The position numbers and the translations under genes are program-made. This document shows positions 20,484 to 38,198 of a stretch of 64,000 nt of DNA, piece after piece. Numbering within the stretch: the stretch's first letter is position 1; each line of letters opens with the position of its first letter. The stretch is from IMG/VR virus record IMGVR_UViG_3300032323_001070, positions 16,763-80,762 of that record, one strand, 5' to 3'. The stretch comes from a virus. The notes beneath the pieces are model-generated. The model saw only the letters and a list, made by a program, of their open reading frames with translations, made no database searches and was not told the DNA's origin.

Positions 20484-20491
20484 GATAAATA
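20484..20491 (+). promoter_or_regulatory. Late promoter motif GATAAATA five bases before the gp13 ATG
   Basis: Seven of eight match to TATAAATA. Its last A is six bases before the A of ATG 20497. In T4 the start site is six bases after the last A of this element, so the mRNA would begin at the start codon. No Shine-Dalgarno sequence is present. Confidence 0.7.
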
Positions 20492-20496
20492 CTTGT

Positions 20497-21255
20497 ATGA
20501 GCCAAATTGACCAATCAAAACAAGCTGTATACGACTACTGTAAAGCCATGCTAGGCGATGGCATGATCGATATAGAACTAGATCCTATACACTACGAAAC
20601 AGCACTAAATCGCTCTCTAGCGGTTTTCCGTCAACGCAGCGATAATGCTGTAGAAGAAAGCTATGCTTTTTTAACTTTGAATAAAGATCAAAACGAGTAT
20701 ATTCTGCCAAAAGAAATACAGCAGGTTCGTCAGATCTTTAGACGCAGCATCGGATCAAGATCCGGTGGTGGCGGTGGCGGTACAGTGTTTGAGCCGTTCA
20801 ATTTAGCCTATACAAATACCTATTTGCTAAGTTCAACAAATATGGGCGGACTGTTAACCTATGAATTGTTTAGCAGTTATCAAGAACTTGTGGGTAAGAT
20901 GTTTGGTTCGTTTATTAACTTCACCTGGCATCCACAGACTAGAAAATTAGTTATAATGCAAAGACCTCGAGGCGAAGAAGAAGTCATGCTTTGGGTTTAC
21001 AATACTAAACCTGATTTTTCTATCATAGAAGATACCTACGCCGGCCAATGGATCAAAGACTATTCATTAGCTAACTGTAAAATGATGTTAGGACAGGCCC
21101 GCGAAAAATTTGCTCAAATAGCAGGACCCACAGGCGGATCGAGCCTCAACGGAGCAGCACTGAAAACCGAAGCCCAACAAGAAATTGAAAAGCTCACTGA
21201 CGATTTGATGAAGTTAGTTCCGGGCGGCAGCGGTTATACTTGGATTATCGGTTGA
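20497..21255 (+). CDS. 13: Neck protein gp13-like, 252 aa
   Basis: The N-terminus (QAVYDYCKAMLGDGMIDIEL, then DPIHYETALNRSL) and the C-terminal segment (QWIKDYSLANCKMMLGQARE, AGPTGGSSLNGAAL, EQEIEKL-type helix) fit the gp13 neck protein of marine T4-like phages; T4 gp13 is slightly longer at 309 aa. A poly-Gly run at residues 89-94 probably forms a flexible loop. gp13 joins the head after packaging and binds gp14. It is transcribed away from gp14 and is a predicted leaderless late gene. The sigma70 promoter of the downstream kinase overlaps its stop codon. Confidence 0.85.
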   Translation: MSQIDQSKQAVYDYCKAMLGDGMIDIELDPIHYETALNRSLAVFRQRSDNAVEESYAFLTLNKDQNEYILPKEIQQVRQIFRRSIGSRSGGGGGGTVFEPFNLAYTNTYLLSSTNMGGLLTYELFSSYQELVGKMFGSFINFTWHPQTRKLVIMQRPRGEEEVMLWVYNTKPDFSIIEDTYAGQWIKDYSLANCKMMLGQAREKFAQIAGPTGGSSLNGAALKTEAQQEIEKLTDDLMKLVPGGSGYTWIIG

Positions 21256-21281
21256 CACTATAAAAATGCGTATGCTATAAT
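21252..21281 (+). promoter_or_regulatory. Consensus sigma70 promoter TTGACA-18-TATAAT
   Basis: Exact -35 (21252-21257) and -10 (21276-21281) hexamers with an 18-bp spacer. The expected start near 21288 gives a 14-nt leader with TGGAGG before ATG 21302. This is an early-type, host-polymerase promoter for the dNMP kinase, embedded after a late gene. Confidence 0.9.
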
Positions 21282-21301
21282 ATTCTTAATTGGAGGATAT
21301 T

Positions 21302-21988
21302 ATGATCATAGGTATTTGCGGGTTTATTGGCAGCGGTAAAGATACAGTCGCTGACTATCTAGTTAATTTTCACGAATTTAGAAGAGAGAGTTTTGCGTCA
21401 ACTCTTAAAGATGCAGTAGCGGCAGTGTTTGGCTGGGACCGGATGCTGTTAGAAGGACGCACCAAAGAAGCCAGAGAGTGGCGAGAGCAAGTAGATCCTT
21501 GGTGGGCACAACGTCTAGACATGCCCACACTTACTCCTAGATGGGTCCTACAATATTGGGGTACAGAAGTCTGCCGTAAATCCTTCCATGACGATATCTG
21601 GATCGCTAGCTTAGAAAACAAACTCCGCAACTCCAAAGACCATGTAGTAATCTCCGATTGTCGTTTCCCTAATGAAATAGCCAGCATTAAAAATGCAGGA
21701 GGCAAGATTATTTGGGTACAGCGAGGAGAACTACCCGACTGGTACGAAATAGCTGTAGAATCTAACAAAGGTCATAATTGGGCATTTCAAGAACTTAAAA
21801 TGCGTAAAATCCATGCATCAGAAACTGCCTGGGTCGGAACCGACTTTGATTCGATAGTTGATAACAATGGAACTATTGAAGATCTTTACAATCAGGCAAA
21901 ATTAATAATCAGCAACGAGGTCGCCCTGTCTCCAAGTAATGCCCAGTTTAGACAGCACTCGAGCACAATTGTAACAGATTGTTTTTAA
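21302..21988 (+). CDS. 1: Deoxynucleoside monophosphate kinase (T4 gp1-like), 228 aa
   Basis: Phosphorylates dNMPs to dNDPs for phage DNA synthesis. The P-loop G-F-I-G-S-G-K-D-T is at residues 7-15, followed by the phage dNMP-kinase pattern: RESFASTLKDAVAAVFGW, a W-W-A-Q-R segment, WVLQYWGTEVCR, and VVISDCRFPNE. The ATG at 21302 has TGGAGG five bases upstream; an in-frame TTG at 21290 falls within the leader. The C-terminal 25-30 residues extend past the usual end and overlap an antisense HNH-like gene by 87 bp. The consensus sigma70 promoter indicates early expression. Confidence 0.9.
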   Translation: MIIGICGFIGSGKDTVADYLVNFHEFRRESFASTLKDAVAAVFGWDRMLLEGRTKEAREWREQVDPWWAQRLDMPTLTPRWVLQYWGTEVCRKSFHDDIWIASLENKLRNSKDHVVISDCRFPNEIASIKNAGGKIIWVQRGELPDWYEIAVESNKGHNWAFQELKMRKIHASETAWVGTDFDSIVDNNGTIEDLYNQAKLIISNEVALSPSNAQFRQHSSTIVTDCF

Positions 21989-22237
21989 ATTGCTGTGACG
22001 GCAGTTATCTAAATTGCCGTCAATATGAAATACACTAAAAACTTCAGAGTGCGGTGATTTGAAACCGCACTTTTCGCACTGATTTTTTACTCGATATCCT
22101 GCACGTTTCCATCTTGGAATACCATGATGCAGTCCGTTAGTCATACAGATTTCACACAGGCTTCTATAATAAGTCTTTCCATTCTTTTTATAGTTAACGG
22201 CTCTAGGTCTTTCCCCGCATTTACATAGTGGTCTCAT
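21902..22237 (-). CDS. HNH-endonuclease-like zinc protein, 111 aa
   Basis: Four Cys pairs are visible: CKCGERP at the N-terminus, CEIC, CEKCG, and CYNC near the C-terminus. The core FHIDGNLDNCRHSNLKTICYNC has the H-x-D-G-N...N-L-x-x-x-C-x-x-C arrangement of HNH nucleases, with His and Asn as expected. It is either a small HNH nuclease or a recombination-associated zinc protein. It is convergent with, and overlaps by 87 bp, the kinase gene. On its own strand TTTAAATA lies exactly five bases before the ATG, so it is a predicted leaderless late gene. Confidence 0.75.
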   Translation of the reverse strand: MRPLCKCGERPRAVNYKKNGKTYYRSLCEICMTNGLHHGIPRWKRAGYRVKNQCEKCGFKSPHSEVFSVFHIDGNLDNCRHSNLKTICYNCARVLSKLGITWRQGDLVADY

Positions 22238-22242
22238 AACAG

Positions 22243-22250
22243 TATTTAAA
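22243..22250 (-). promoter_or_regulatory. Minus-strand late promoter motif TTTAAATA five bases before an ATG
   Basis: Read on the minus strand: TTTAAATA, then CTGTT, then ATG of the HNH-like gene. This is the same +6 spacing as the plus-strand leaderless units, which argues that the spacing is selected rather than accidental. Confidence 0.6.
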
Positions 22251-22311
22251 AGATCTGGACCTTTTTGTCCCCTTTTTCTGCTAGTATAACAGGCCGTTTT
22301 TCCGATTTACC

Positions 22312-22319
22312 GCTAAATA
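22312..22319 (+). promoter_or_regulatory. Late promoter motif GCTAAATA for the sheath gene
   Basis: Late-type element (six of eight, TAAATA core intact). The predicted start near 22325 leaves a 30-nt leader containing CAGGAGA before ATG 22355, so the sheath mRNA is of the Shine-Dalgarno type. Confidence 0.6.
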
Positions 22320-22354
22320 TTGTTACGAGAGATTTAACCTCAGGAGAATACAAC

Positions 22355-25300
22355 ATGGCACTAGTTTCCCCAGGCATTCAGGTTACCGTAATTGATGAGA
22401 GTTTTTATACACCAGCTGAACCTGGTACAACTCCGTTAATTGTTGTAGCTACAGCCGAGAACAAACTTAATGGAGCGGGAACCGCAACTGCGGCAGGTAC
22501 TCTAAAAGCAAACGCAGGTAAAGCGTTTAGAATGACAAGTCAGAAAGATCTTGTTGATACATTTGGTGTACCTTTCTTTGAAAAGACACCTAGCGCATCA
22601 CCAATTCACGGTGGCGAAAGAAACGAATATGGTACCTTAGCAGCATACAGCTACTTAGGTGTTTCTAACTCTGCATTTATTGTACGTGCAGACGTTGATC
22701 TAAATCAATTAGAAGGCAGAACCGCTGTACCAGGCGCAGAGCCAAGAGACGGAACTTGGTGGGTTGATACCCGTAACACAGCTTGGGGTATCCAAGAGTG
22801 GAACGGTGCAGCAGGTAGCACCACAGGCGGTCAAAAGTTCGCAGCTAAAACTCCTATCGTTTTAACTGATGACGATGCAGCTAAAATTGATCAAAATACA
22901 TATGCACCTTTAGAATCAGTTGGTTCTGTTGGTGATTATTGCGTAGTAGCACTAACTGTTGGTAACGCAGCAGATGCTGATTTTAGCTTGTTCAAAGAAA
23001 ACTTTAAGATCTACTACAAGAGAGATAAAAAATTATTAGGCGGTGACGCTTGGGTTCTAGTTGGCAGCAACGACTGGAAAGCTAGTCATCCAACAGTGTC
23101 AAGCGGAACTGTTTCTAACCTAACAGCTGGACACAGTTTCACAATTAACGGAACAACTGTAGCAGTACCAAGCGGCTCAACTGTAGCTGCTAGACTAACA
23201 GCATTAGTTTCAACAATTAATGGTTTGTCTATCACAGGTATTACTGCAAGAGAAAACGGCGGAAGATTGTTCATATTCACCGACGGTGCTAACGATGGCG
23301 GATTCCCAGGTAGTCCACAAGGTGCCCCTGGCGATTCATCTTTATCCAATGCTATCGTTATTGGTGCAGGAACAGGCACAGCAGTTGGAACTTCAACAGC
23401 AAACGCAGGTGATCTTGGCATTATCGTTGGAACCTACTATGGTCCAGAATTAGCACAGGCACCGCACACACAAGTTCCATTGTTTAAGACTTTCGATCCA
23501 ACTCCACGTCCTACAGGTTCTGTATGGATTAAGACAACTGAGCCAAACAACGGCGCTCGTTGGAGAGTTAAGCGTTGGAACTCAGCAACACAAACATGGA
23601 TTCCTTATTCATCACCATTATATGAAAGCGGACACGCAGCACTGTATTTCTTAGATCGCAGTGGCGGTGGTGTTAATATTCCAACAGACGAACTGTTTGC
23701 TCAATTCAATGCTGACGAAGAGTCTGGCTACGATACAAGCCCAGCTACAGCAGCATTTAGAGTGTGGAGACGTGCAAATACTGAAAGAACTATTATTAGA
23801 TCTTCAGAAATCACAGTCGGAACATTTTCGTCTGGTTCGAAAACATTTACAATTTCTGAATCTGTAAAAGGCGAACTAGCATTGAGTTCACCATTTAGCG
23901 TTACATTTACCGCAGCAGGTACAGCAGCAGATGCACAAACTATCGCAGCAGCGATCAACGCAGCAGGTTTCACACACGTTGAAGCTGATGTTGAAGTAAT
24001 TTCTGCAACACCAGCAGTTTATCAACTAGTTGTTTACCACAAGGTCGGCGGTGATTTTAGATTAAAAGACACATCCGGAACAACATTATCATCATTGTTC
24101 ACAGGATTTAACATTGATTCTGGAGCAGGCACATTAAATTGCTACACAGCTCCAGCAGCTAGCGGTGTTGATTTTATTGCTTCTAACTGGCAACCATTTG
24201 CATCAAGAGACTTCTTTGCACAAGCAGGCGCACCATTAGACGAACCATTTGATGGTCAACTATGGTACAACCCAAGCTTCAGCGAAGTTGATATCATGAT
24301 CCACAACGGTACAACCTGGGTTGGCTACAGACAAGCAACAAGCCCATACTGGGCAGGGGCAGATGCAGATCGTACAGATCCAAATGGTCCTATCGTAAGT
24401 GCTACACAACCAGAAACACAAAGCGATGGTACTGTTCTAAAGAATGGTGATCTATGGATCAGCACAGCTGACATTGAAAACTTCCCAACTATCTACAGAT
24501 ACAATGGTTTATCTCTAGAGTGGGATTTAATTGACAAGACAGACCAAACTACTGAAGACGGTGTTCTATTTGCTGATGCACGTTTTGGTTCTTCAGGAGC
24601 AACAGGCCACGTAGCAGCTACCATCAAAGATCTACTAGCTTCTAACTATCTAGATCCAGACACTCCAGATCCTGCACTATATCCAAAAGGTATGATGCTG
24701 TGGAATCTACGTAGAAGTGGCGGCAACGTTAAGAAATACAATAACAACTATATCAATACAGCAGAAGACAATCCACGTTTAGGTAATGTAAGTATGGCAG
24801 CATACTCAACTGATCGTTGGACCACAGCTTCTCCAAACAACGAAGACGGTTCTGGCGCATTTGGTCGCAAGGCACAGCGTAAAGTTGTTGTAATGGCAAT
24901 GAAGAGTGTTATTGATACCAGTGAAGAAATTCGTGATGAAGAGCGTAGAAACTTCAATATCATCGCTGCACCAGGATATCCTGAAGTGTTAAGCAACTTG
25001 ATCAACTTAAACATTGATCGTGGCGTAACAGCGTTTGTTGTTGGCGACACACCATTGAGATTGAAGAACAACGCTACAGAACTAATCAACTGGGGTACTA
25101 ACGCAAGACTAGTAACAGACAACGGCGACGACGGTATTGTTAGCTTTGACGAGTATTCAGCAGTTTACTATCCAAACGGATTTACAACTGACCTAGGCGG
25201 TGCTAACGCAGTTGTTCCAGCAAGTCACATGATGCTAAGAACAATCGCCCTAAGCGATCAAGTTAGCTATCCATGGTTTGCACCAGCAGGTACAAGACGT

Positions 25301-25798: not shown

Positions 25799-25800
25799 AA

Positions 25801-26430: not shown

Positions 26431-26450
26431 ACCATCCAGTAAATCAAAGA

Positions 26451-26473
26451 AACCCGCAGAAGCGGGTTTTTTT
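26451..26473 (+). terminator. Rho-independent terminator after gp19
   Basis: AACCCGC-AGAA-GCGGGTT followed by a T run. It ends the gp18-gp19 transcript only five bases before a new late promoter element, so the next gene must start its own transcript. Confidence 0.92.
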
Positions 26474-26477
26474 GTGG

Positions 26478-26485
26478 CATAAATA
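26478..26485 (+). promoter_or_regulatory. Late promoter motif CATAAATA five bases before an ATG
   Basis: Lies directly after a terminator and has its last A six bases before ATG 26491. No room exists for a Shine-Dalgarno sequence on a transcript from this element, so a leaderless mRNA is predicted. Confidence 0.75.
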
Positions 26486-26490
26486 TTATT

Positions 26491-27591
26491 ATGAATAAAT
26501 TCGTGAGATATCTAACCCAAGGATTCGTCGGCGGCCTTCTAAATCCTAAAGGCAACATGGCTAACTGGCAACATGCCACGAGGCTATTTGTTGACGACAA
26601 TTATAGATTAGCTCCTAGAACAAAGTTTATGTTCTATGCTCAATTTGAGCTAGATAGAACTGCGGTTAAATCAAACGTCTTTACAGAAAAACATTCAAAT
26701 GAAATTGGTTTTTTGATCAAAGGAACTGATCTTCCTAAGTTTACTATTGACACAGTAACTAAAAATCAATACAACAGAAAAAAATTAGTTTATAAAAATA
26801 TAACCTACGATCCGATCTCAATGACATTCCACGATGACAATGCTGGAATCATTAACGCTTTGTGGGCGATATACTACGGATATTATTTCCAAGATCGTGC
26901 ATTACCGGATGCTGCTTTTTCAGATACAAAATACAGACCGCAATACGGACCATTAGATACATTTCGTTACGGTCTTGATAATGATAAGAGCGTTGATATT
27001 TTTAAAAGTATCAGTATCTATACACTAAGTAGAAAGCGTTTTAACGGATATACCCTGATTAATCCTAGAATACAAAACTGGGCACACGGATCCGTGGCCT
27101 ATGGCGATAACGATGTTTTAGAAAGCACGATGACTGTTCAATACGAATCTGTAAGATACTCATCAGGAAACGTTAGTGTAAACAATCCTAAAGGTTTTGC
27201 TACTCTACACTATGATGTATCGCCTAGTCCTCTCAGTGTTGCTGGTGGCGGCGTTGCTAGACTTACTGGCACAGGCGGTGTCTTAGATGGTATCAGTCAG
27301 GTGTTTGGTGCAGTAGGTAGCGGTTCAGCTTTTGGTTCTGTAGGCGGATTTTTAGGCACAGCTATTGCTGCTGCTAACACTTATAATAATGCAGGACGTC
27401 TTTCTAAAGAAGGTCTTAAAGCTGAAGCGATTAACATTTTATCTAGCCCGTCGAATATCAGAGGGGCAGTTAATACAGTCAGTGGGGTTATAGGTTCAGC
27501 GTTTCCTTCAAACACCCAAGGTAGTGGCGGAACTACCGCTACTCAGAAAAATCTAACCAATAACAATCCTAGCGCAGGAACAACAATATGA
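26491..27591 (+). CDS. Tail-tube-like baseplate protein (gp54/gp19-type fold suspected), 366 aa
   Basis: The first 240 residues resemble the tube-protein plan: NYRLAPRTKFMFYAQFELD followed by beta-strands, FLIKGTDLPKFTIDTVTKNQ, KKLVYKNITYDPISMTFHDD, a helix NALWAIYYGYYFQD, and MTVQYESVRYSSG. This is the order of strands seen in gp19 and in the T4 baseplate tube initiators gp48/gp54. The last 120 residues are Gly/Ala/Ser-rich and probably disordered. It sits just after gp19, so a tube initiator or second tube-type ring is inferred. T4 gp54 is 320 aa. Confidence 0.65.
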   Translation: MNKFVRYLTQGFVGGLLNPKGNMANWQHATRLFVDDNYRLAPRTKFMFYAQFELDRTAVKSNVFTEKHSNEIGFLIKGTDLPKFTIDTVTKNQYNRKKLVYKNITYDPISMTFHDDNAGIINALWAIYYGYYFQDRALPDAAFSDTKYRPQYGPLDTFRYGLDNDKSVDIFKSISIYTLSRKRFNGYTLINPRIQNWAHGSVAYGDNDVLESTMTVQYESVRYSSGNVSVNNPKGFATLHYDVSPSPLSVAGGGVARLTGTGGVLDGISQVFGAVGSGSAFGSVGGFLGTAIAAANTYNNAGRLSKEGLKAEAINILSSPSNIRGAVNTVSGVIGSAFPSNTQGSGGTTATQKNLTNNNPSAGTTI

Positions 27592-28411: not shown

Positions 28412-28894
28412 ATGACCAAAAAATTAGAAGAACTTTTTAATCTTGAGGAATCTAATCCAAAGCCAGTGGAAACTGTCGAAGAGGAAAAGCCATCTCACCA
28501 AGAAGTAAAATCACTAGATGACAGCTATAAAGCAGTCGCTGAAATTACCAGAGGTCTTCCGCAGATCAAAGAGCTAGATGATCTAGACGAAAAAGAGCTA
28601 GATTCTCTAGCCAGTAAAGCAGAAGCTGCCTATGACGATCTAATGGATCTAGGCATGAACGTAGAAGTACGTTATTCGGGACGTATTTTTGAAGTGGCTG
28701 CAAGCATGATGGGCAATGCTATCAATGCTAAAAACGCTAAAATCGAGAAGAAACTTAAAGCTATCGATCTACAATTGAAAAAATATAAAATCGATAAAGA
28801 TAACAATGAAGATCCAAATGATGTGATTAACGGCCAGGGTTACATTATCACTGACCGTAACGAGCTCCTTAAGAAATTGGGTCAAAAGAGCTAA
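28412..28894 (+). CDS. 16: Small terminase subunit gp16-like, 160 aa
   Basis: The small terminase binds DNA and regulates the packaging motor. The helical core AAYDDLMDLGMNVEVRYSGRI followed by FEVAASMMGNAINAKNAKIEKKLKAIDLQLKKYKID is the pattern of gp16 in marine T4-like phages. The N-terminal 45 residues are acidic and likely disordered, as in the family. T4 gp16 is 164 aa. Here gp16 is separated from gp17 by two extra genes, whereas in T4 they are adjacent. Confidence 0.85.
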   Translation: MTKKLEELFNLEESNPKPVETVEEEKPSHQEVKSLDDSYKAVAEITRGLPQIKELDDLDEKELDSLASKAEAAYDDLMDLGMNVEVRYSGRIFEVAASMMGNAINAKNAKIEKKLKAIDLQLKKYKIDKDNNEDPNDVINGQGYIITDRNELLKKLGQKS

Positions 28895-28897
28895 ATA
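28890..28897 (+). promoter_or_regulatory. Late promoter motif GCTAAATA five bases before an ATG
   Basis: Overlaps the gp16 stop codon. The order is GCTAAATA, CTACT, ATG, so the predicted start is the A of ATG 28903. No Shine-Dalgarno sequence lies between. Confidence 0.65.
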
Positions 28898-28902: not shown

Positions 28903-29454
28903 ATGAAAACTTTTAAAGAATATCTTACCGAAAGCAAAAAGACCTACCCGTTCCGTATCAAGGTAGCAGGCGAACTGCCTGAAGGTTTTGCTAAAAAAGT
29001 CAAAGAATATCTAGGATATTGCAGAGCTAATTTGATTGAAAAATCAAAAACTCCGATACAGGCACAACCTCTGGATTTTCCAGAATTAAGTAATATGGAA
29101 GTGCATGTGTTTGAAGTAGTATGCGAGTATCCAACTACTGCTCCTCAGATACTTGAAAGAATTAAATGCCTAGTTCCTGAAAGTCATTTACGAGTAAGAA
29201 ACGGCGGTGATCCAGGCGAAGCAGAACACGCAGGATTTAATCTAGAAGGTTCGGGTGAATCTATTCTAGAAGAGCCAGAGTATAATGATAAAGTCAAAGC
29301 CAAAGATTATTTCGGCGATGATTTTAATAAAGGTTTCTTAAAAGACCTTTCCAAGTCGTCTAAAGAACGCAAAAAGGAAGGCGTTAATACAGAATACAAA
29401 TTACCAAAATCAAAAGAAGATAAAACTGGCGTTAAGAGCGCCATAGGGAGTTAA
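28903..29454 (+). CDS. Probable head-packaged protein with capsid-targeting N-terminus, 183 aa
   Basis: The first eleven residues M-K-T-F-K-E-Y-L-T-E-S closely resemble the capsid-targeting sequence of T4 internal proteins (IPIII begins M-K-T-Y-Q-E-F-I-A-E). L-T-E at 8-10 fits the T4 prohead protease consensus (I/L)-x-E. The middle part (residues 16-110) has an alternating strand/helix pattern (FRIKVAGELP, MEVHVFEVVCEYPTTAPQIL). The C-terminal third is Lys/Glu-rich and possibly disordered. It lies between the two terminase genes. Packaging into the head and cleavage after E10 are inferences; the family is unknown. Confidence 0.75.
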   Translation: MKTFKEYLTESKKTYPFRIKVAGELPEGFAKKVKEYLGYCRANLIEKSKTPIQAQPLDFPELSNMEVHVFEVVCEYPTTAPQILERIKCLVPESHLRVRNGGDPGEAEHAGFNLEGSGESILEEPEYNDKVKAKDYFGDDFNKGFLKDLSKSSKERKKEGVNTEYKLPKSKEDKTGVKSAIGS

Positions 29455-30165: not shown

Positions 30166-30181
30166 ATCAATTTAGCAATCA

Positions 30182-30207
30182 AATAGGCTCTACGGAGCCT
30201 ATTTTTT
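30182..30207 (+). terminator. Rho-independent terminator upstream of gp17
   Basis: AATAGGCTC-TACG-GAGCCTATT followed by TTTTT, three bases before the late element for gp17. The large terminase is thus transcriptionally separate from the small terminase. Confidence 0.93.
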
Positions 30208-30209: not shown

Positions 30210-30217
30210 AGTAAATA
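30210..30217 (+). promoter_or_regulatory. Late promoter motif AGTAAATA five bases before the gp17 ATG
   Basis: Order AGTAAATA, CTCGT, ATG. With a terminator immediately upstream, gp17 mRNA most likely starts here, at its own start codon. Confidence 0.7.
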
Positions 30218-30222: not shown

Positions 30223-31809
30223 ATGGCAAAATCACTAGACGGTAACCTAATCAAGAAGGCACACAAGCCTGAACGATACACATTAGAAGAAGTTAAGCAT
30301 CTCGAAGCATGTATGGATCCAGTTACGGGTCCTTTATATTTCTGCAAAAACTTTTTAAAGATTCAGCACCCTGTTCGCGGTGCTATTAAGTTTGAGCCTT
30401 ATGAATATCAAGAACGACTAATAGATGCATATCACAATAACAAACAATGTATTGCTATGCTACCCCGTCAGATGGGTAAAACGACCTGTGCCACAGGTTA
30501 TCTATTATGGTACACGATGTTTGTACCAGAAGCACAGGTCCTGATCGCTGCTCACAAAATGGAAGGTGCACAGGATATCATGAATCGTTATCGATTCGGT
30601 TACGAAAACCTTCCAGACTTTATACGTGCTGGTGTATATTCATATAACAGAAATACAATTGAATACGATAACGGAGCACGTATCCAAGCAGTGACAACTA
30701 CGGAAAATACAGGTCGTGGTAAATCTCTTTCTCTAATTTATTGTGATGAGTTTGCATTCGTACAACCACCAGAGAAAGCCAAAGAGTTCTGGACTGCACT
30801 ATCGCCAACATTGTCAACAGGCGGTAAGTGTATTATTACATCAACACCAAACTCGGACGAAGACCAGTTCGCTTTGATATGGACTGAAGCTAATAAAAAG
30901 TTTGATGAATACGGCAACGAAAGCAAGTTAGGAACCAACGGATTCTATAGCTACTTCGCACACTGGAGTGAACATCCAGATCGTGACGAAACATGGGCTA
31001 AGATTGAACGTGCAAAAATTGGTGAAGAACGTTTCCGCAGAGAATTCGATTGCGAATTCTTAATCTTCGACGAAACTCTAATCAACGCAGTAAAGTTAAC
31101 AGAACTTGCAGGAATTGATCCAATAATGACTATGGGTCAAACTCGTTGGTACAAAGATATAGACCCTAAGGCTACATATCTAGTATCACTTGATCCTAGC
31201 CTAGGTACAGGTGGCGACTACGGTGCTATTCAAGTGTTCGAAATGCCCACTATGGAACAGGTCGCAGAATGGCGTCATAATCTAACACCTATTCAGCAGC
31301 AGGTTAAACACATGCGAGAAATACTGCGATACATTAACGATCGTGGCCAGGAAAAAGGCGGAACTCCTCAGATATACTATTCAGTAGAAAATAACACCCT
31401 AGGTGAAGCTGCATTGATTGTTATCAGTGATATCGGCGAAGAAAACTTCCACGGACTGTTCTTAAGCGAACCTATACGTAAAGGGCATGTTCGTAAGTTC
31501 CGCAAAGGATTTAATACCACACACCGTACTAAGATCACAGCCTGTAGTCAACTAAAAAACATGATCGAAACCCACAAAATGGTATTGAAATCAAAGCCCT
31601 TGATTTCTGAGCTCAAGACCTTTGTAGCGCACGGTGTAGGGTTTGGAGCTAAAACAGGCGAGCATGATGACCTAGTAAGTGCAACTCTATTGATCATACG
31701 TATGGCAGATGTTTTGGCAGATTGGGATCCTAAGATTTACGAAAAAATGACGGAAAAAATCACGGAAGAACAAATGCCAATGCCAATATTCATTAGTACA
31801 GGTTTTTGA
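30223..31809 (+). CDS. 17: Large terminase subunit gp17-like (ATPase-nuclease), 528 aa
   Basis: Packaging motor. The N-terminal ATPase has Walker A PRQMGKTT at residues 81-88, Walker B LIYCDE at 171-176, and the coupling motif ITSTPN near 205-210. The C-terminal RNase H-like nuclease has VSLDPSLGTGGDYGAI with Asp324 and Asp332, and a late acidic motif HDDLVSA before the C-terminus. Length is shorter than T4 gp17 (610 aa), as in marine T4 relatives. It is predicted to be leaderless. No inserted intron or intein was seen. Confidence 0.97.
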   Translation: MAKSLDGNLIKKAHKPERYTLEEVKHLEACMDPVTGPLYFCKNFLKIQHPVRGAIKFEPYEYQERLIDAYHNNKQCIAMLPRQMGKTTCATGYLLWYTMFVPEAQVLIAAHKMEGAQDIMNRYRFGYENLPDFIRAGVYSYNRNTIEYDNGARIQAVTTTENTGRGKSLSLIYCDEFAFVQPPEKAKEFWTALSPTLSTGGKCIITSTPNSDEDQFALIWTEANKKFDEYGNESKLGTNGFYSYFAHWSEHPDRDETWAKIERAKIGEERFRREFDCEFLIFDETLINAVKLTELAGIDPIMTMGQTRWYKDIDPKATYLVSLDPSLGTGGDYGAIQVFEMPTMEQVAEWRHNLTPIQQQVKHMREILRYINDRGQEKGGTPQIYYSVENNTLGEAALIVISDIGEENFHGLFLSEPIRKGHVRKFRKGFNTTHRTKITACSQLKNMIETHKMVLKSKPLISELKTFVAHGVGFGAKTGEHDDLVSATLLIIRMADVLADWDPKIYEKMTEKITEEQMPMPIFISTGF

Positions 31810-31815
31810 TAAATA
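31808..31815 (+). promoter_or_regulatory. Late promoter motif GATAAATA five bases before an ATG
   Basis: Overlaps the gp17 stop. The order GATAAATA, TAACT, ATG gives a predicted start at 31821. This decides the start codon of the next gene against an in-frame TTG at 31806. Confidence 0.7.
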
Positions 31816-31820
31816 TAACT

Positions 31821-33905
31821 ATGGACGCAAGAAATAACATTTCAACTGATTTATTCTACAAAATTCGTAGCCGCTTCTCTGGCCTTAAATTAGGGGGAGA
31901 AGACGGTGCTATTACTATCAATCCAGAAGACGCTAGATTCTTCGACTTTGATTATATGGAGGGAGAAACTCCGTTAGGACATGTCAGCATTAGTTTAGCT
32001 GAACCCAATTCTATGAAAGTTTATTTCAGTACAGGAATCACTGAATCAATGGAAGAGTCTCAAAAAGACAATTGGTACGGTTTCCTTAGAGAACTGAGAC
32101 AGTTTGCTAAAAAGCGTCTAATGGCGTTCGATACCCGAGACATTACTAAAGACAATCTTGATAAAAGAGATTATCAATTTTTAAGTCAAAATGCTCAACC
32201 TAAACCAGAAACGTCAGCGAATATTATACAAAAACCAGTCGGAGAAAGTGTTATGAGTGAAAGCGCAATGTACGGTACAAAGACCGTCAGCTATCAAAAA
32301 TTAATGGATACACGTTTGATTATTAAGCATAGTCAAGCACTAGTAGACGATACACAGCCAGGTGCAAGAACTCGTCATATCTCTGCATTATTTGTAGAAA
32401 ACCAAGACGGTGAAAGATTTAAATATCCATTCATCCATTTAGCAGGTGCTCGTGCTATGCAACGACATGTGGCCAATGGCGGATTACCGTATGATGATCT
32501 CGGTAAGAGTATTATCACTATGAGCGAAGAAATCGCTCAACTAAAAAGTTTTTCAAACTATGTTGTTCGTAACGATCTAATGAACTCAGATACTAACGGC
32601 ATCGTTGAAAGAAGCTCACAGGCATTAAACAGTTTACGTGAACAAATCAAAGCATTGGCAAAACAAGGTCATTATGAGGCTTACAAAGAAAGTTTCCAGG
32701 CACGTGAACAGGTAGAAATTCCACAAGACGTAGTAGAAGATTTTAAAGAAAAATTCACTGTAAGAAATTTTAAAGAAGATATTAAATCTGTTTTCCCTGT
32801 ACTGTACAGATTAATGCAAGAAGAAAATACCTTAGGCTATGACGACATAGTCGCAATGACTTCACATCAGGACGAAGAGCAATTTAATGACGATGTAGAA
32901 GTTTCTGAACAAATAGATGATTTTGAAAAATTTGAATCATGGGTAATGGGACTAGGTGAAGAAAGTGCTATTGCCAGCCAAGATCAAGAAGAACAAGCAG
33001 AGGCTATCAAACAATTACAGGAATTAGTCGGCGAACATTTCCCAGCAGGTGTAGACGGCAGCAATGCTATTGAAAGCCTTAAAGGTCTTATTGACGATCC
33101 AGAATTGTTTAAACAAATCAAAGATCAAGCCAAAGAAGATCCAGACAGTTGTGTTCGACCACTAGTAAAACAATGGCTAGAAGATAATGCTCCAGACGTA
33201 GTAAGCAAGTTAGATTTTGGAGATATGACAGAGCCAGGTCAAGAAGAACCAGAAGCAGGTGCAGAAGAAGTTCCTGCAGATCAAGCTGCTGCAGAAGTTC
33301 CTGCAGAAGAACCAGTAACACAAGGTGACGACAACGAAGAAGGCAGAGAAGGCCGAGGTAGAATGAATGTTAAAGAACTTGCTGAATTTATTACCTCGTT
33401 CTATGACAAAGATTCAGGCACATTCCCTAAAGGACCAGAAGGCGTTTGCACTATGGTAGGCAAGAAGTTTGGTGAACAGGCAGAACAAGTTGCTCGTAAA
33501 TTTGTAGAAAGAATGGCACCACAACAAACATCTGAAAATAATCCAGAATTAGCAGAATTGGCTCGTATCGGAGAACTAGCAGGTGTTAGCGAAGGCCCGA
33601 TGTGGGACAAAGTGAAAGCATTTGGAAAGGCAGCAGGTGACAAAGTCATGCGCCACGCAGACATAACTGGATATACAAAGGCCAAACAAAATTTTGAAAA
33701 ATGGATCGATTCTCATCCAGAACTAGAACCAGAAAAAGAAAATCTTCTTTCTAAATTTGATGCAGAAGCAGAAGAAGATCCACATACTCCGTGGAACTGG
33801 GGTAAGTATGCACTAGAAAAATGGAAGGAAGAGAAAAAGTCCGGAGCAGTTAATCAAGAATCTAATGACGAATTATCAAGAGTAAAAGCGTTAGCAGGCA
33901 TGTAA
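31821..33905 (+). CDS. Large phage protein of unknown function following gp17, 694 aa
   Basis: Residues 1-120 form one domain (DLFYKIRSRFSGLKLGGEDG, then FFDFDYMEGETPLGHVSISL and a W-Y-G-F-L-R-E-L-R helix). A second region around 140-260 is beta/alpha with RHISALFVENQDGERFKYPF. Residues 300-500 are Glu/Gln/Asp-rich, with an acidic Ala/Glu/Pro low-complexity stretch near 475-510. Two copies of an E-L-x-R-I/V-x-x-L-A-G motif occur, near residue 580 and at the very C-terminus. The start at 31821 fits the promoter spacing. I know comparable large proteins near the terminase of marine T4-like phages but no function; scaffold-like or head-associated is a guess. Confidence 0.75.
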   Translation: MDARNNISTDLFYKIRSRFSGLKLGGEDGAITINPEDARFFDFDYMEGETPLGHVSISLAEPNSMKVYFSTGITESMEESQKDNWYGFLRELRQFAKKRLMAFDTRDITKDNLDKRDYQFLSQNAQPKPETSANIIQKPVGESVMSESAMYGTKTVSYQKLMDTRLIIKHSQALVDDTQPGARTRHISALFVENQDGERFKYPFIHLAGARAMQRHVANGGLPYDDLGKSIITMSEEIAQLKSFSNYVVRNDLMNSDTNGIVERSSQALNSLREQIKALAKQGHYEAYKESFQAREQVEIPQDVVEDFKEKFTVRNFKEDIKSVFPVLYRLMQEENTLGYDDIVAMTSHQDEEQFNDDVEVSEQIDDFEKFESWVMGLGEESAIASQDQEEQAEAIKQLQELVGEHFPAGVDGSNAIESLKGLIDDPELFKQIKDQAKEDPDSCVRPLVKQWLEDNAPDVVSKLDFGDMTEPGQEEPEAGAEEVPADQAAAEVPAEEPVTQGDDNEEGREGRGRMNVKELAEFITSFYDKDSGTFPKGPEGVCTMVGKKFGEQAEQVARKFVERMAPQQTSENNPELAELARIGELAGVSEGPMWDKVKAFGKAAGDKVMRHADITGYTKAKQNFEKWIDSHPELEPEKENLLSKFDAEAEEDPHTPWNWGKYALEKWKEEKKSGAVNQESNDELSRVKALAGM

Positions 33906-33928
33906 AAATTAATTACATATTAAAGATT

Positions 33929-33952
33929 GGGCACTTCGGTGCCCTTTCTTTT
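33929..33952 (+). terminator. Rho-independent terminator
   Basis: GGGCAC-TTCG-GTGCCC, a UUCG-capped stem, with a T-rich tail (TTTCTTTT), 23 bases after the stop codon. It ends the gp17 block. Confidence 0.9.
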
Positions 33953-34007
33953 GTCAGTTTTACCAAATCATGTTAACCACTATCTGTTCCTTTGCGTTAT
34001 ATATATA

Positions 34008-34028
34008 GTTGTCGAATTTCTCGACAAC
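34008..34028 (+). promoter_or_regulatory. Inverted repeat in the leader of the secreted-peptide gene
   Basis: GTTGTCGA-ATTTC-TCGACAAC is a perfect 8-bp stem with a 5-nt loop, placed just after an AT-rich TATATATA stretch (promoter candidate) and 12 bases before the GGAG site. It could be an operator or an mRNA-stabilising hairpin; there is no T tract, so it is not a terminator. Confidence 0.55.
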
Positions 34029-34051
34029 AATAACAAAATGGAGATTTTCAT

Positions 34052-34243
34052 ATGAAATCAATCGTTGCATTAACCGCTGCTCTTTTCGCAGCCACAACAG
34101 CATTTGCACAAGCACCTGCTAAGAAAGAAGAAGCCAAACCAGCTGCACCTGCTGCCGCTGCACCGGCTAAGGATGCTAAGGCTGCTCCAGCACCTGCTGC
34201 TCCTGCTAAGAAAGAAGAAAAGAAAGACGCAGCTAAGAAGTAA
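34052..34243 (+). CDS. Small secreted Ala/Pro/Lys-rich peptide, 63 aa
   Basis: A clear Sec signal peptide: M-K-S, a hydrophobic core IVALTAALFAATTAFA, and the cleavage motif A-F-A before Gln20. The mature 44 residues consist almost entirely of Ala, Pro, Lys, Glu and Asp (APAKKEEAKP, PAAPAKKEEKKDAAKK), with no aromatics or cysteine. It would be exported to the periplasm or beyond, or act at the envelope. GGAG lies 8 bases upstream of the ATG. It has its own hairpin-bearing leader and terminator. It looks like a host-derived gene of the kind seen in beta-proteobacteria; that origin is inference. Confidence 0.75.
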   Translation: MKSIVALTAALFAATTAFAQAPAKKEEAKPAAPAAAAPAKDAKAAPAPAAPAKKEEKKDAAKK

Positions 34244-34254
34244 TGAGCGATTGA

Positions 34255-34282
34255 AAGGGCTCTTTTTAGAGCCTTTTCTTTT
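34255..34282 (+). terminator. Terminator after the secreted-peptide gene
   Basis: AAAGGGCTCT...AGAGCCTTT with a TTTTCTTTT tail, 12 bases after the stop. Together with the upstream terminator it makes the peptide gene a single-gene transcription unit. Confidence 0.85.
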
Positions 34283-34317
34283 GGCAAAATAATCTATCAC
34301 GTTTGAAAGAAAATAGT

Positions 34318-34346
34318 TTGCTTTTACTAAATAAAAAGCGCATAAT
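34318..34346 (+). promoter_or_regulatory. Sigma70-like promoter TTGCTT-17-CATAAT for gp32
   Basis: -35 at 34318-34323 and -10 at 34341-34346, 17-bp spacer, each four or five of six from consensus. A late-type ACTAAATA at 34326-34333 lies inside the spacer, so this region could serve both early and late transcription of the single-strand binding protein gene. Confidence 0.5.
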
Positions 34347-34357
34347 ATGTTTATGCG
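34339..34357 (+). promoter_or_regulatory. Hairpin in the gp32 upstream region
   Basis: CGCATAA-TATGT-TTATGCG, a perfect 7-bp stem 45 bases upstream of the gp32 ATG. T4 gp32 represses its own translation through a folded 5' leader. Whether this hairpin plays that role depends on the true start site, because it overlaps the predicted -10. Confidence 0.45.
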
Positions 34358-34402
34358 AAAGGCATATAAGTCATTTACACTAAGGCATAAGGAGGCTATA
34401 AA

Positions 34403-35377
34403 ATGGCAACATTAGCAGAAATTCGTGCTAAACTTCAAGAAGCACAAAATAAGAGCACAGGCTCTACATCAAGCGGCGGCGACAACGCAATTTACCCACA
34501 CTGGAATATGCAAGAAGGCAAAGAAGCCGTAGTACGGTTCTTACCTGACGGCAATGCCAATAACACTTTCTTCTGGGTTGAACGAGCAATGATTAAATTG
34601 CCGTTTGCAGGAATCAAAGGCGAAACAGATTCACGTCAAGTACAAGTTCAAGTACCTTGCGTTGAAATGTACAACGATGGTTCAGTATGTCCTATCTTGT
34701 CAGAAGTTCGTGGTTGGTTCAAAGACAAGAGTCTAGAAGACATGGGTCGTAAGTATTGGAAGAAGCGTTCATATATTTTCCAAGGTTTTGTCGTTGAAGA
34801 TCCAATCAAAGAAGATAAGACACCAGAAAATCCTATCCGTAGATTTATCATTGGTCCTCAAATCTATCAATTGATCCGCGGTGCATTAATGGATCCAGAG
34901 TTGGATGAGTTGCCAACTGACTACCTTAAAGGTGTTGACTTTAAGATTGCTAAGACTAGCAAAGGTGGTTTCGCAGACTACTCTACATCAAAGTGGAGCC
35001 GTAGAGAACGTGCTCTAGCAGATGCTGAGCAGGCAGCGATCAATCAATATGGTCTTTTTGATCTGTCTGCATTCTTACCTAAGAAACCTTCAGATATTGA
35101 ACTCAAGGTCATGAAAGAAATGTTCGAAGCGTCTGTTGACGGTGAGGCATATGACATGGATCGCTGGGGTCAATACTTCAAACCCGCAGGTATGGGCTCA
35201 GCCACAGGTGATCCTGTAGCAAAAGCCAAAGCGGTGCCATCATCCGAAGAATACGATGACGAACCTGTAGCAGCACCTGCTCCTGCTCCTAAAGCAGAAG
35301 CTCCGGCAGCAACAGCAGATGGTGCTAGTCGTGCGCAAGACATTCTTGCCAAGATTCGCGCTCGTCAGAGTCAATAA
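34403..35377 (+). CDS. 32: Single-stranded DNA-binding protein gp32-like, 324 aa
   Basis: Coats ssDNA in replication, recombination and repair. N-terminal helix LAEIRAKLQEAQNK (cooperativity domain), core with YPHWNMQEGKEAVVRFLPDG and FFWVERAMIKLPF, and an acidic C-terminal tail with an Ala/Pro linker, ending AQDILAKIRARQSQ. The T4 zinc site (H64, C77, C87, C90) is only half kept: C86-x9-C96 matches the first pair, but the other two ligands are missing, as far as I can tell by spacing. AAGGAGG lies 11 bases upstream of the ATG. It is followed by a hairpin, then by UvsX and UvsY. Confidence 0.93.
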   Translation: MATLAEIRAKLQEAQNKSTGSTSSGGDNAIYPHWNMQEGKEAVVRFLPDGNANNTFFWVERAMIKLPFAGIKGETDSRQVQVQVPCVEMYNDGSVCPILSEVRGWFKDKSLEDMGRKYWKKRSYIFQGFVVEDPIKEDKTPENPIRRFIIGPQIYQLIRGALMDPELDELPTDYLKGVDFKIAKTSKGGFADYSTSKWSRRERALADAEQAAINQYGLFDLSAFLPKKPSDIELKVMKEMFEASVDGEAYDMDRWGQYFKPAGMGSATGDPVAKAKAVPSSEEYDDEPVAAPAPAPKAEAPAATADGASRAQDILAKIRARQSQ

Positions 35378-35388
35378 TAATAAACAGA

Positions 35389-35416
35389 AGAGTATGGGGT
35401 AATGCCCATACTCTCT
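35389..35416 (+). terminator. Strong hairpin after gp32 (attenuator or mRNA stabiliser)
   Basis: AGAGTATGGG with a short loop and CCCATACTCT, a stem of at least ten pairs, without a long T tract. It more likely protects the 3' end of gp32 mRNA or attenuates readthrough into uvsX than fully terminates. Confidence 0.7.
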
Positions 35417-35436
35417 TACCATAATAGGAGATTAAG

Positions 35437-35628
35437 ATGGCAAAATTAAGTAAACTAGCAAAGGTAAACGAATCGATTACTATCAATCGCTACGACAATG
35501 GTTGGATGATTGAAATTGGCGGTCGTGACAAAAAAGAAGAATGGAAAACCACTAAGACCATGTGTAACACAGAAGATGAATTAATTGCTGTGATCAAAGA
35601 GTGGAACTCAATGGACCTGGATAACTAA
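35437..35628 (+). CDS. Small conserved phage protein upstream of uvsX, 63 aa
   Basis: A short protein with a predicted beta-sheet and one helix (ITINRYDNGWMIEIGGRDKK, TEDELIAVIKEWNSMDL). AATAGGAG lies 7 bases before the ATG, and its stop is one base before the uvsX start codon, so it is co-expressed with the recombinase. No motif points to a function. The class is common beside uvsX in marine T4-like phages, to my knowledge without an assigned role. Confidence 0.75.
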   Translation: MAKLSKLAKVNESITINRYDNGWMIEIGGRDKKEEWKTTKTMCNTEDELIAVIKEWNSMDLDN

Positions 35629-35629
35629 T

Positions 35630-36712
35630 ATGGCTAAAGCATTTGATATTTCTAAATTTAGAAAGTCAATTACAAAGTCTATTGAAGGCTTGTCAATTGG
35701 CTTTAACGATCCAACTGATTGGGTGTCAACAGGTAACTACGCACTGAACTATCTTATCAGCGGAGACTTTCATAGGGGAGTTCCTCTGGGCAAAGTCACT
35801 GTATTTGCTGGCGAGAGCGGTGCAGGTAAATCTTATATTTGTTCTGGTAACCTTATCAAGGCAGCACAAGCACAAGGCATTTATCCTATCCTAATTGATA
35901 CAGAAAATGCACTTGATGAAGATTGGCTTAAGGCACTAGGCGTAGACACAGCCGAAGATAAGTTGTTGAAACTTAACATGGCTATGATTGACGATGTAGC
36001 AAAAACTATTACAGAATTTGTTGCAGAATATAAACAGATGCCAGAAGACAGTCGTCCTAAAGTGTTGTTTGTTCTTGACTCACTAGGTATGTTGTTAACT
36101 CCAACAGACGTTAATCAGTTCGAAGCAGGCGATTTAAAAGGTGATATGGGCCGTAAGCCTAAAGCACTAACAGCACTGGTTCGTAACTGTGTGAACATGT
36201 TTGGTTCATTAAACATTGGTCTAGTAGCTACTAATCACACATACGCTTCACAAGATATGTTTGATCCAGATGACAAGATCTCTGGTGGTCAAGGCTTTAT
36301 CTATGCGTCAAGTATCGTGGTAGCGATGAAGAAACTCAAGCTCAAAGAAGACGATGACGGTAACAAGATCACAGAAGTTCGCGGTATCCGTGCGGCTTGT
36401 AAGATCATGAAAACTCGTTATGCTAAACCGTTTGAATCAGTACAAGTGAAGATTCCTTACGAAACAGGTATGAATCCGTATAGCGGACTGGTAGACCTGG
36501 CTGAAGCTAAAGGTATGCTCAAGAAAGAAGGTAACAGTCTTGTATATGTAACTAAAGACGGTGAAATCATCAAGCAGTTCCGCAAGGCTTGGGAGAGAAA
36601 CGAGAATGATGGTTTAGATGCTATCATGAACGATATTTCTAAATATGGCGAAAAAGTCAATTCTGAGATAACTAATAATGATGTTGTATCTGAACCGGAG
36701 AGCGCAGAATGA
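35630..36712 (+). CDS. uvsX: UvsX recombinase (RecA-like), 360 aa
   Basis: Forms the presynaptic filament on ssDNA and catalyses strand exchange with gp32 and UvsY. Walker A GESGAGKS at residues 61-68; Walker B LFVLD at 146-150; the L2-type region SQDMFDPDDKISGGQGFIYA; and a C-terminal domain with GLVDLAEAKGMLKKEG. Length is close to T4 UvsX (391 aa). The final residues are acidic. It overlaps the next start codon by four bases. Confidence 0.96.
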   Translation: MAKAFDISKFRKSITKSIEGLSIGFNDPTDWVSTGNYALNYLISGDFHRGVPLGKVTVFAGESGAGKSYICSGNLIKAAQAQGIYPILIDTENALDEDWLKALGVDTAEDKLLKLNMAMIDDVAKTITEFVAEYKQMPEDSRPKVLFVLDSLGMLLTPTDVNQFEAGDLKGDMGRKPKALTALVRNCVNMFGSLNIGLVATNHTYASQDMFDPDDKISGGQGFIYASSIVVAMKKLKLKEDDDGNKITEVRGIRAACKIMKTRYAKPFESVQVKIPYETGMNPYSGLVDLAEAKGMLKKEGNSLVYVTKDGEIIKQFRKAWERNENDGLDAIMNDISKYGEKVNSEITNNDVVSEPESAE

Positions 36713-36942
36713 AAGAAGATTTAATTGCCGACTTGTGGAATGTAGTAGTAGAACATATTCCTGAAAAACAAAAGAAAGATGTAGCACATGATTTTGTTAA
36801 CACACTCATGGACTACGGAATCAAAGAGTCGACCGTTGAAAGCCTATTAGGTGTCGATCCTTACCTCGATGAAGCTATTGAATACGTCATTGACGGTGAG
36901 GAAATCCAAGAAGATGAAGATTACTACGAAGACGAAGACTAA
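36709..36942 (+). CDS. Small acidic phage protein between uvsX and uvsY, 77 aa
   Basis: Helical N-terminal two thirds (LIADLWNVVVEHIPEKQK, HDFVNTLMDYGIKESTVESLLG) and a run of Asp, Glu and Tyr at the C-terminus. Coupled by four-base ATGA overlap to uvsX and by one base (TAATG) to uvsY, so it is likely made in proportion to them. An accessory recombination role is context inference only. Confidence 0.75.
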   Translation: MKEDLIADLWNVVVEHIPEKQKKDVAHDFVNTLMDYGIKESTVESLLGVDPYLDEAIEYVIDGEEIQEDEDYYEDED

Positions 36943-37397
36943 TGAATTGGTATGATAAAGTTTCGAGGGATATTAGTAACATCCCCGATGCCGTGGCCTA
37001 TTATGAAGCCGAACTGTTAGCGGCAAAACAAGATGTCCGCGTAGCTGGTAACATCGAGAAAGCCTCAGCGCAGATGCCCGGCATCGTTGAAACTAGATTT
37101 AATCAACTTCAGGAAATTGAGGGTATCTTAGAATATCTCAATATCGAACTTCGTCGACTACGTAGTCAGCATTTTCGCAAGTATCTTGAAAACTATCAAC
37201 GCAGCTTGTCCTCTAGAGACTGTGAAAAGTTTGTAGAGGGCGAAGCTGATGTTGTAGACTTTGAAAAGATCATCAACGATTTTGCACTGTTAAGAAACAA
37301 GTGGTTAGGCATTATCAAAGCCTTAGATATCAAACAGTGGCAGTTATCAAATATCGTTAAATTAAGAACTGCTGGCTTAGAAGACGCCACTCTTTAA
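36942..37397 (+). CDS. uvsY: UvsY-like recombination mediator, 151 aa
   Basis: UvsY loads UvsX onto gp32-covered ssDNA. The protein is all helical: VSRDISNIPDAVAYYEAEL, EKASAQMPGIVETRFNQLQEI, LRRLRSQHFRKYLE, ALLRNKWLGIIKAL. This is the pattern I know as UvsY in marine T4-like phages and fits the size of T4 UvsY (137 aa). Sequence similarity to T4 itself is weak, so the name leans on gene order (uvsX, small gene, uvsY). Confidence 0.75.
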   Translation: MNWYDKVSRDISNIPDAVAYYEAELLAAKQDVRVAGNIEKASAQMPGIVETRFNQLQEIEGILEYLNIELRRLRSQHFRKYLENYQRSLSSRDCEKFVEGEADVVDFEKIINDFALLRNKWLGIIKALDIKQWQLSNIVKLRTAGLEDATL

Positions 37398-37417
37398 TTA
37401 TACCAGTAAACTGCCCA

Positions 37418-37425
37418 TATAAATA
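37418..37425 (+). promoter_or_regulatory. Consensus late promoter TATAAATA five bases before an ATG
   Basis: Exact T4 late consensus, then AGACT, then ATG 37431. It is the clearest example of the leaderless layout because the promoter is perfect and no Shine-Dalgarno sequence exists. It drives the entry gene of the glycan island. Confidence 0.8.
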
Positions 37426-37430
37426 AGACT

Positions 37431-38198
37431 ATGAAAATAGTCTTAGTTACAGGTGGGTTTGATCCCATACATTCCGGGCACATTGCCTATTTCAAAGCAG
37501 CACGTTCACTAGGTGATATGCTCCTAGTTGGAATCAATTCTGACGAATGGCTTGTTCGTAAAAAGGGTCGTGCGTTTATGCCCTGGAACGAACGCCTTTG
37601 TATAATCAATAATCTATCAATGGTTGACGAAGTTTATACCTTCGATGACGAAGACGGTTCTGCTAAAGAATTTATTAAACAGGTTCGAGCGCATTATCCA
37701 GATGCAGAATTGATATTTGCCAACGGCGGCGATCGCACTGCAAAAAATATTCCAGAAATGGACGTTGAAGATTCTAATTTAAAATTTGAATTTGGAGTCG
37801 GAGGCGAAGATAAAAAGAATTCTAGCTCATGGATTCTAACTGAATGGAAATCGCCCAAGACTGAAAGAACCTGGGGCTACTATCGTGTATTACACGAAAT
37901 ACCAGGATGTAAAGTCAAAGAACTAACTGTAGATCCTGGTAAGAGCCTAAGCCTGCAACGACATCGAGATAGAACTGAAATATGGTTAGTATCTGAAGGT
38001 CAGTGTATGGTAGAACATCACGGGCATGCCATAGAGACTGACGAATATCTAATACACACCCCTTTAAAGGAACATACTGAGTTTCATATTCCTAGAACTA
38101 AATGGCATAGACTTTTTAATCCGTATGAAACTCCATGCCGGATCGTGGAAATACAATACGGCGATAGATGCGATGAAGAGGATATAGAAAGAAGATGA
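37431..38198 (+). CDS. Cytidylyltransferase-cupin fusion, 255 aa
   Basis: Residues 1-135 are a HxGH nucleotidyltransferase: G-G-F-D-P-I-H-S-G-H at 8-17, then LLVGINSDEWLVRKKGR and FANGGDR. Residues about 147-255 match the cupin half of type II mannose-6-phosphate isomerase / GDP-mannose pyrophosphorylase (WGYYRVLHEIPGCKVKEL, then GKSLSLQRHRDRTEIW, then FHIPRTKWHRLFNP). The fusion suggests synthesis of an activated sugar or alditol, with the cupin isomerising or sensing the sugar phosphate. It heads a glycan gene run and overlaps the next gene by four bases. Confidence 0.82.
   Translation: MKIVLVTGGFDPIHSGHIAYFKAARSLGDMLLVGINSDEWLVRKKGRAFMPWNERLCIINNLSMVDEVYTFDDEDGSAKEFIKQVRAHYPDAELIFANGGDRTAKNIPEMDVEDSNLKFEFGVGGEDKKNSSSWILTEWKSPKTERTWGYYRVLHEIPGCKVKELTVDPGKSLSLQRHRDRTEIWLVSEGQCMVEHHGHAIETDEYLIHTPLKEHTEFHIPRTKWHRLFNPYETPCRIVEIQYGDRCDEEDIERR

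Follow-up and report, generated by a model that had tools for sequence, protein, structure and literature searches.

We analyzed a 64,000-nt stretch of phage DNA (hereafter the window), which is positions 16,763 to 80,762 of the 80,762-bp record IMGVR_UViG_3300032323_001070, and the distance in it between the T4-type late promoter core, TAAATA (the late box), and the start codon. Seven genes of the window have TAAATA exactly five bases before their ATG, and the same distance was dominant in every set of related contigs. Read together with the published geometry of the T4 late promoter, these sequences make it very likely that T4-type late promoters fire leaderless mRNAs at genes with this arrangement.

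Late boxes five bases from the start codon in the window

In what follows, d is the number of nucleotides between TAAATA and the start codon, N5 stands for d=5, and a box-bearing start is one with TAAATA within 64 nt. Direct reading of the sequence found TAAATA, exactly five bases and ATG at all seven genes named in an earlier prediction for this DNA (the original prediction), and each ATG opens the named gene (Table 1). Every five-base spacer ends in T, as had been stated. The late-type element said to be shared by these genes was upheld for the core TAAATA, but the full octamer, TATAAATA, was present only at the site at 37418, and the two leading bases varied elsewhere; the coordinates first given were those of the two bases preceding each box, and TAAATA itself starts 2 nt further in. 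The virion or late genes behind the N5 boxes encode the gp13-like, tail-tube-like and gp17 proteins and two virion structural proteins. The HNH assignment of the minus-strand open reading frame (ORF) 21902-22237 was a weak match, below the Pfam cut-off. The protein encoded at 37431-38198 is a cytidylyltransferase fused to a mannose-6-phosphate isomerase-type cupin, and it perhaps serves virion or surface sugar modification. Two of the seven genes were correctly described as directly preceded by terminators (hairpins in Table 1), while the TAA of the box at 28892 doubles as the stop codon of the preceding gene.

The window holds 41 copies of TAAATA on both strands, and 7 of them have ATG at d=5 versus 0.68 expected from composition (Poisson P = 7e-6). 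No multiple-testing penalty applies to this value because the spacing was set beforehand by T4 geometry. Order-3 Markov simulations (n=200) gave a mean of 1.3 and a maximum of 5 TAAATA-N5-ATG patterns, versus the 7 observed. These counts, with the d=5 peak in relatives described below, support the earlier claim that exact spacing on both strands argues for selection. An eighth TAAATA-N5-ATG, outside the window (record L010:8137-8150, G000), was rejected as probably a chance match; it lies inside a long ORF (5097-8249) and has G before its ATG.

Spacing in related phages

The record is probably a fragment of a much larger genome, and near relatives of the window phage extend up to 364 kb. T4-type families found in the window phage were the head-tail adaptor, tail tube, sheath, sheath stabiliser, head closure, terminase, UvsX, UvsY and a gp32-like single-stranded DNA-binding protein. 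By the terminase large subunit (TerL), the nearest isolates were Pseudomonas phages PA5oct and Paride (54%), Sinorhizobium phage Phosso (52%) and Agrobacterium phage Atu_ph07 (47%). Set A consisted of 80 close-relative metagenomic contigs from terminase searches, mostly with 85-90% TerL identity; sets B and C were metagenomic contigs recruited with the PA5oct and Phosso terminases, whose TerL is mostly 50-64% identical to that of the window. Raw pattern counts rarely exceeded a reversed-pattern control clearly in reference phages, which makes them a poor test, so gene starts were used instead. Each gene was called as the longest ORF opening with ATG and was started at its first ATG, and the box therefore had no influence on the choice of start.

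The data showed a peak at d=5, the absence of which had been named as grounds for refutation. The distance d=5 accounted for 276 of the 392 box-bearing starts in set A; 25 more stood at d=4 and 10 at d=6, hardly any fell between 8 and 20, and another cluster lay at about 21-35. Of the 386 box-bearing starts in set B, 90 were at d=5 and 40 at d=7, with 19 each at d=4 and d=6; in set C, 155 of 361 were at d=5. The peak was also seen in Pelagibacter phage HTVC008M (10 starts) and, among HTVC008M-like contigs, 23 of 188 box-bearing starts were at d=5. Eleven other AT-rich hexamers gave no d=5 peak in set A; ATAAAT and AAATAT peaked only at offsets that result from their overlap with TAAATA. The spacer was constant in length and variable in sequence: 6-10 different 5-mers occurred per gene among the six that were best sampled. 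The 40 set B genes at d=7 (loci L190-L269) form a separate class, frequently with ACT right before ATG, which points to either another fixed geometry or a displaced start site. The 578-kb jumbo contig IMGVR_UViG_3300046660_000488 (G010) contained 40 TAAATA-N5-ATG patterns and none of the reversed pattern.

Late genes with and without a Shine-Dalgarno site

The Shine-Dalgarno (SD) site, scored as a short SD match upstream of the start, was then compared between starts at d=4-6 and starts at d>=15. It was found in 29/311 versus 63/71 starts in set A, 0/128 versus 128/194 in set B, and 7/173 versus 131/162 in set C (Fisher P < 1e-39). No SD was present at the 20 genes with d=4-6 in contig G003 (whole, 41% GC), nor at the 20 such genes in the 400 kb of G010 examined (59% GC). 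Thus two kinds of late gene coexist in these phages, N5 genes that mostly lack SD and leadered genes that mostly have it, and the window holds both (Table 1).

Table 1. Late boxes with their gene starts, and terminator-like hairpins, in the window
Feature	Position	Strand	d (spacer or SD)	ATG	Gene	N5 in relatives
Late box (GA)TAAATA	20486..20491	+	5 (CTTGT)	20497	Head-tail adaptor (gp13-like), 20497-21255	d=5 kept in 16/22 orthologues
Late box TAAATA	22243..22248	-	5 (CTGTT)	22237	Small HNH-like ORF, 21902-22237	4/11 family members
Late box (CA)TAAATA	26480..26485	+	5 (TTATT)	26491	Tail-tube-like protein, 26491-27591	54 N5 members in family
Late box (GC)TAAATA	28892..28897	+	5 (CTACT)	28903	Virion structural protein, 28903-29454	60/65
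Late box (AG)TAAATA	30212..30217	+	5 (CTCGT)	30223	Terminase large subunit (gp17), 30223-31809	58/80; d=4 in 15/80
Late box (GA)TAAATA	31810..31815	+	5 (TAACT)	31821	694-aa virion structural protein, 31821-33905	69/74
Late box, full TATAAATA	37420..37425	+	5 (AGACT)	37431	Cytidylyltransferase-cupin protein, 37431-38198	20/20
Late box TAAATA	20471..20476	-	7	20463	Virion structural protein, 19072-20463; conserved start MPRLSLY	
Leadered late box	3602..3607	+	26 (GGAG)	3634	Tail fibre/baseplate protein	
Leadered late box	7015..7020	+	22 (GAGG)	7043	2698-aa virion protein	
Leadered late box	16175..16180	+	20 (GAGG)	16201		
Leadered late box	22314..22319	+	35 (AGGAG)	22355	Tail sheath	
Terminator-like hairpin	26450..26469				Directly upstream of box at 26480	
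Terminator-like hairpin and T run	30181..30204	+			Directly upstream of gp17 box at 30212	

Predicted transcription starts at the A of ATG

In T4 the late box spans positions -13 to -6 (PMC1524935), so a five-base spacer would put +1 on the A of ATG, as the original prediction held. This placement is consistent with the T4 geometry, the lack of SD, the near-exclusive use of ATG, the preceding pyrimidine and the terminators. The base before ATG at d=5 was a pyrimidine in 96-100% of the distinct N5 contexts of sets A-C (T 82-90%, C 6-18%, purine 0-3%), unlike SD genes, in which A was common at this position (34-69%). A pyrimidine followed by a purine is the usual step at a transcription start. 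Start codons at d=5 in set A were ATG (327), GTG (0) and TTG (2), and ATG was dominant in sets B-D as well. A terminator hairpin was found within 90 bp of 34% (set A) and 33% (set B) of N5 starts, versus about 2% of box-less starts. In HTVC008M, the starts annotated by the depositors coincide with the N5 ATGs where checked.

The divergent gp13-like and virion gene pair

A further box on the minus strand precedes a virion structural protein gene at a spacing of 7 (Table 1). A nearer in-frame ATG, at d=1, is absent from four relatives (L089, L023, L035 and L083) that keep the ATG at d=7, and 20463 is therefore the conserved start of this gene. It is likely an eighth late-box case in the window, with a spacing of 7 rather than 5, and by T4 geometry its mRNA would have a leader of 0-2 nt. 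Between 20465 and 20497 the two late boxes of this gene and the gp13-like gene stand back to back with overlapping promoter regions. A similar divergent late-box pair is present in HTVC008M at 18916/18943.

Late transcription machinery and proposed mechanism

Of 11 long relatives, 10 yielded a homologue of gp55 (E 7.6e-8 to 8.7e-5). The residues of T4 gp55 that contact the late box are known (PMC7892883), and five homologues were aligned for comparison (search loci L352 and L353 were left out because of poor ORFs). The contact residues N13, R57, F86 and T99 were conserved in 5/5 homologues and Y97 in 4/5, and L54 and H95 were replaced in the jumbo relatives.

We propose that host RNA polymerase with a phage gp55-like sigma factor would use these T4-type late promoters, in which the core TAAATA would lie at roughly -11 to -6. 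In one class of late genes, promoter position would be fixed so that +1 is the A of AUG; the resulting mRNA would be leaderless and lack an SD site, and translation would start by recognition of the 5'-terminal AUG. The second class would keep a leader, typically of 15-30 nt, with SD. We infer the late timing, the true 5' ends and the initiation route of the N5 genes, and 70S-type initiation, which the original prediction had named, would follow by analogy with work on other leaderless mRNAs.

Several observations weigh against leaderless transcription from N5 promoters. The 5' ends in N5 phages are predictions from T4 geometry and the d=5 peak. The full T4 octamer is present at just 1 of the 7 boxes, gp55 was not found in the window's own 80-kb fragment record, and T4, PA5oct and others carry the same box without N5 spacing. 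Spacings of 4, 6 and (in set B) 7 occur too, and a leader of 1-2 nt or a displaced start is therefore possible for some mRNAs. The terminator enrichment at N5 starts was absent in set C, and the pyrimidine rule before ATG was weak in G010. The relatives were sampled chiefly around gp17, and the TerL proteins of set A are so similar that its counts are not independent.

Alternative explanations

Transcription might begin 1-3 nt upstream of AUG and give near-leaderless mRNAs with a short leader. The existence of d=6 and d=7 classes, including the set B genes that often have ACT before ATG, fits this possibility, which we consider unlikely: d=5 was dominant in every set, T4 geometry then gives a zero leader, and the pyrimidine at -1 was strongest at d=5 in the larger sets.

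It is still less probable that TAAATA-N5 is a translation signal, namely an A/U-rich, SD-independent ribosome binding element within longer transcripts, as in SD-poor hosts. A constant distance to ATG and the loss of SD would fit such a signal equally well, and the spacing from promoter elements to genes is usually variable. However, the same hexamer stands at d>=15 before SD-bearing starts (63/71 in set A), where it could hardly act on a ribosome, and SD is used by many non-N5 genes of these phages. The box is moreover the known T4 late box, gp55 is encoded by relatives, the pyrimidine-A step at -1/+1 is a feature of transcription starts, and in sets A and B terminators are much commoner ahead of N5 boxes than ahead of other starts.

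The boxes could also be real promoters whose genes are translated mostly from readthrough or operon transcripts, with the leaderless form a minor product and the spacing a result of genome compaction. Two window genes do abut the preceding gene without a terminator (the box at 28892 shares its stop codon, and the box at 31810 follows the stop). Against this, readthrough mRNA would equally be without SD at the N5 starts, in sets A and B about one N5 site in three has a terminator ahead of it, and compaction predicts neither the empty zone at d=8-20 nor the pyrimidine at -1; we regard this explanation as very improbable.

Chance in an AT-rich genome was refuted by the comparative counts: although such DNA is rich in TAAATA and ATG, and the N5 counts of several reference phages were no higher than the reversed-pattern control, the window alone gave P = 7e-6, 338 of 918 TAAATA sites in relatives were at N5, other hexamers had no comparable d=5 peak, and G010 had 40 matches versus 0 for the control at 59% GC.

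Association with the ribosomal protein bS21

The ribosomal protein bS21 is encoded by HTVC008M and by the N5-rich near-complete contigs G003, G004, G007, G010 and G011. It was not found in T4, Syn9, S-PM2, RaK2, KVP40, BF or P-SSM2, and T4, Syn9, S-PM2, RaK2, KVP40 and P-SSM2 had no clear N5 excess. Nor was it found in contigs G001, G002, G005 and G006, which are shorter (188-270 kb) and may be incomplete. Pelagibacter phage Mosig and Methylophilales phage Melnitz were picked for their bS21 and T4-like genomes and were then found to have N5 genes. However, PA5oct, Phosso and Atu_ph07 also have bS21 although their N5 counts show no clear excess, and on this ground bS21 was rejected as sufficient by itself to produce N5. 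The association is suggestive; it is correlative and draws on few independent contrasts, in which host and clade are confounding factors.

The bS21 of HTVC008M enters E. coli ribosomes and lowers translation of a green fluorescent protein reporter to about 5% (PMC6375957). Ribosomes without bS1, uS2 and bS21 are selective for leaderless mRNA (PMC4929434), and in Flavobacterium bS21, with bS18 and bS6, hides the anti-SD (PMC10783764). Leaderless late mRNAs and phage bS21 might be two halves of a translation switch, in which phage bS21 would replace the host copy, weaken SD-dependent initiation and favour mRNAs with a 5' AUG, thereby steering late ribosomes to virion genes; we put this forward as a tentative and rather doubtful idea.

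Other features of the window

A perfect sigma-70 promoter (TTGACA-18-TATAAT, with an extended -10) at 21252-21281 is followed by GGAGG and then by a gene for a deoxynucleoside monophosphate kinase (21305-21988), an early-type gene sitting between late genes. A possible variant box, TAAGTA, was seen at 17540 on the minus strand, with five bases (TTTTC) between it and the ATG of a small ORF on that strand. Sugar or modification genes at 50209-50808, 52092-52766, 52763-53590 and 59048-60493 encode two 2-oxoglutarate-Fe(II) oxygenase-like proteins, a nucleotide-sugar epimerase and a Nol-like carbamoyltransferase.

Comparison with known phages and leaderless mRNAs

The leaderless interpretation of the N5 arrangement is well supported in silico, and we regard the arrangement as a previously unreported variant within the T4 late promoter system. 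As in T4, with its gp55/gp33/gp45 late system, the box precedes virion genes, and the gp55 family is present in the window's relatives; T4 has TATAAATA at -13..-6 (PMC1524935), whereas the window phage has the core TAAATA with variable leading bases. The boxes of T4 itself are at least 9 nt from ATG, except for 2 at d<=3, and SD is present at 25/35 of those 6-64 nt away. Among called genes, no d=5 start was found in T4, Syn9, S-PM2, RaK2 or KVP40, and N5 as a general property of the T4 superfamily was rejected on these grounds.

The related jumbo T4-like phages PA5oct and Phosso share bS21 and have weak gp55 matches, but their N5 counts were hardly above the control, and PA5oct had one d=5 gene. 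In CBB, an ATAAATA late promoter was predicted before structural genes, together with a gp55-like factor (PMC5259590); of the RaK2/CBB/GAP32-type jumbo phages, RaK2 differs in having no gene at d=5. AR9 was rejected as a jumbo-phage precedent for leaderless mRNA, its leaders being 26-491 nt long (PMC5312081).

The N5 architecture recurs in three marine T4-like myophages: HTVC008M, with 34 box-bearing starts, 10 of them N5, Mosig (5/43) and Melnitz (3/37). Most or all of their d=5 genes have a pyrimidine before ATG, including all eight of Mosig and Melnitz, none of which has SD. These three phages differ in their smaller genomes (about 141-147 kb), and the TerL of HTVC008M is 32% identical to that of the window. 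One study was unable to predict late promoters in pelagimyophages (PMC7029224). We found no report of leaderless late mRNAs in HTVC008M, Mosig or Melnitz, nor any published case with T4-like, jumbo or cyanophage late promoters, although subscription literature was not covered and this absence is not proof. The N5 group of T4-like phages is large, widespread and mostly uncultured.

In proteobacteria, leaderless mRNAs usually count as rare exceptions that are weakly translated. Should the predicted 5' ends be borne out, these phages would make an entire class of virion mRNAs, those for terminase and structural proteins among them, leaderless through a fixed promoter-to-AUG distance. This would offer a simple model for leaderless translation under selection, help to call gene starts and predict late promoters in uncultured phages, and supply a concrete hypothesis to explain the presence of bS21 genes in phages. 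Like bacterial leaderless mRNAs of the lambda cI type, the predicted transcripts have a 5'-terminal AUG and no SD; unlike them, here a whole late-gene class would be leaderless by a fixed promoter geometry, with ends predicted from sequence.

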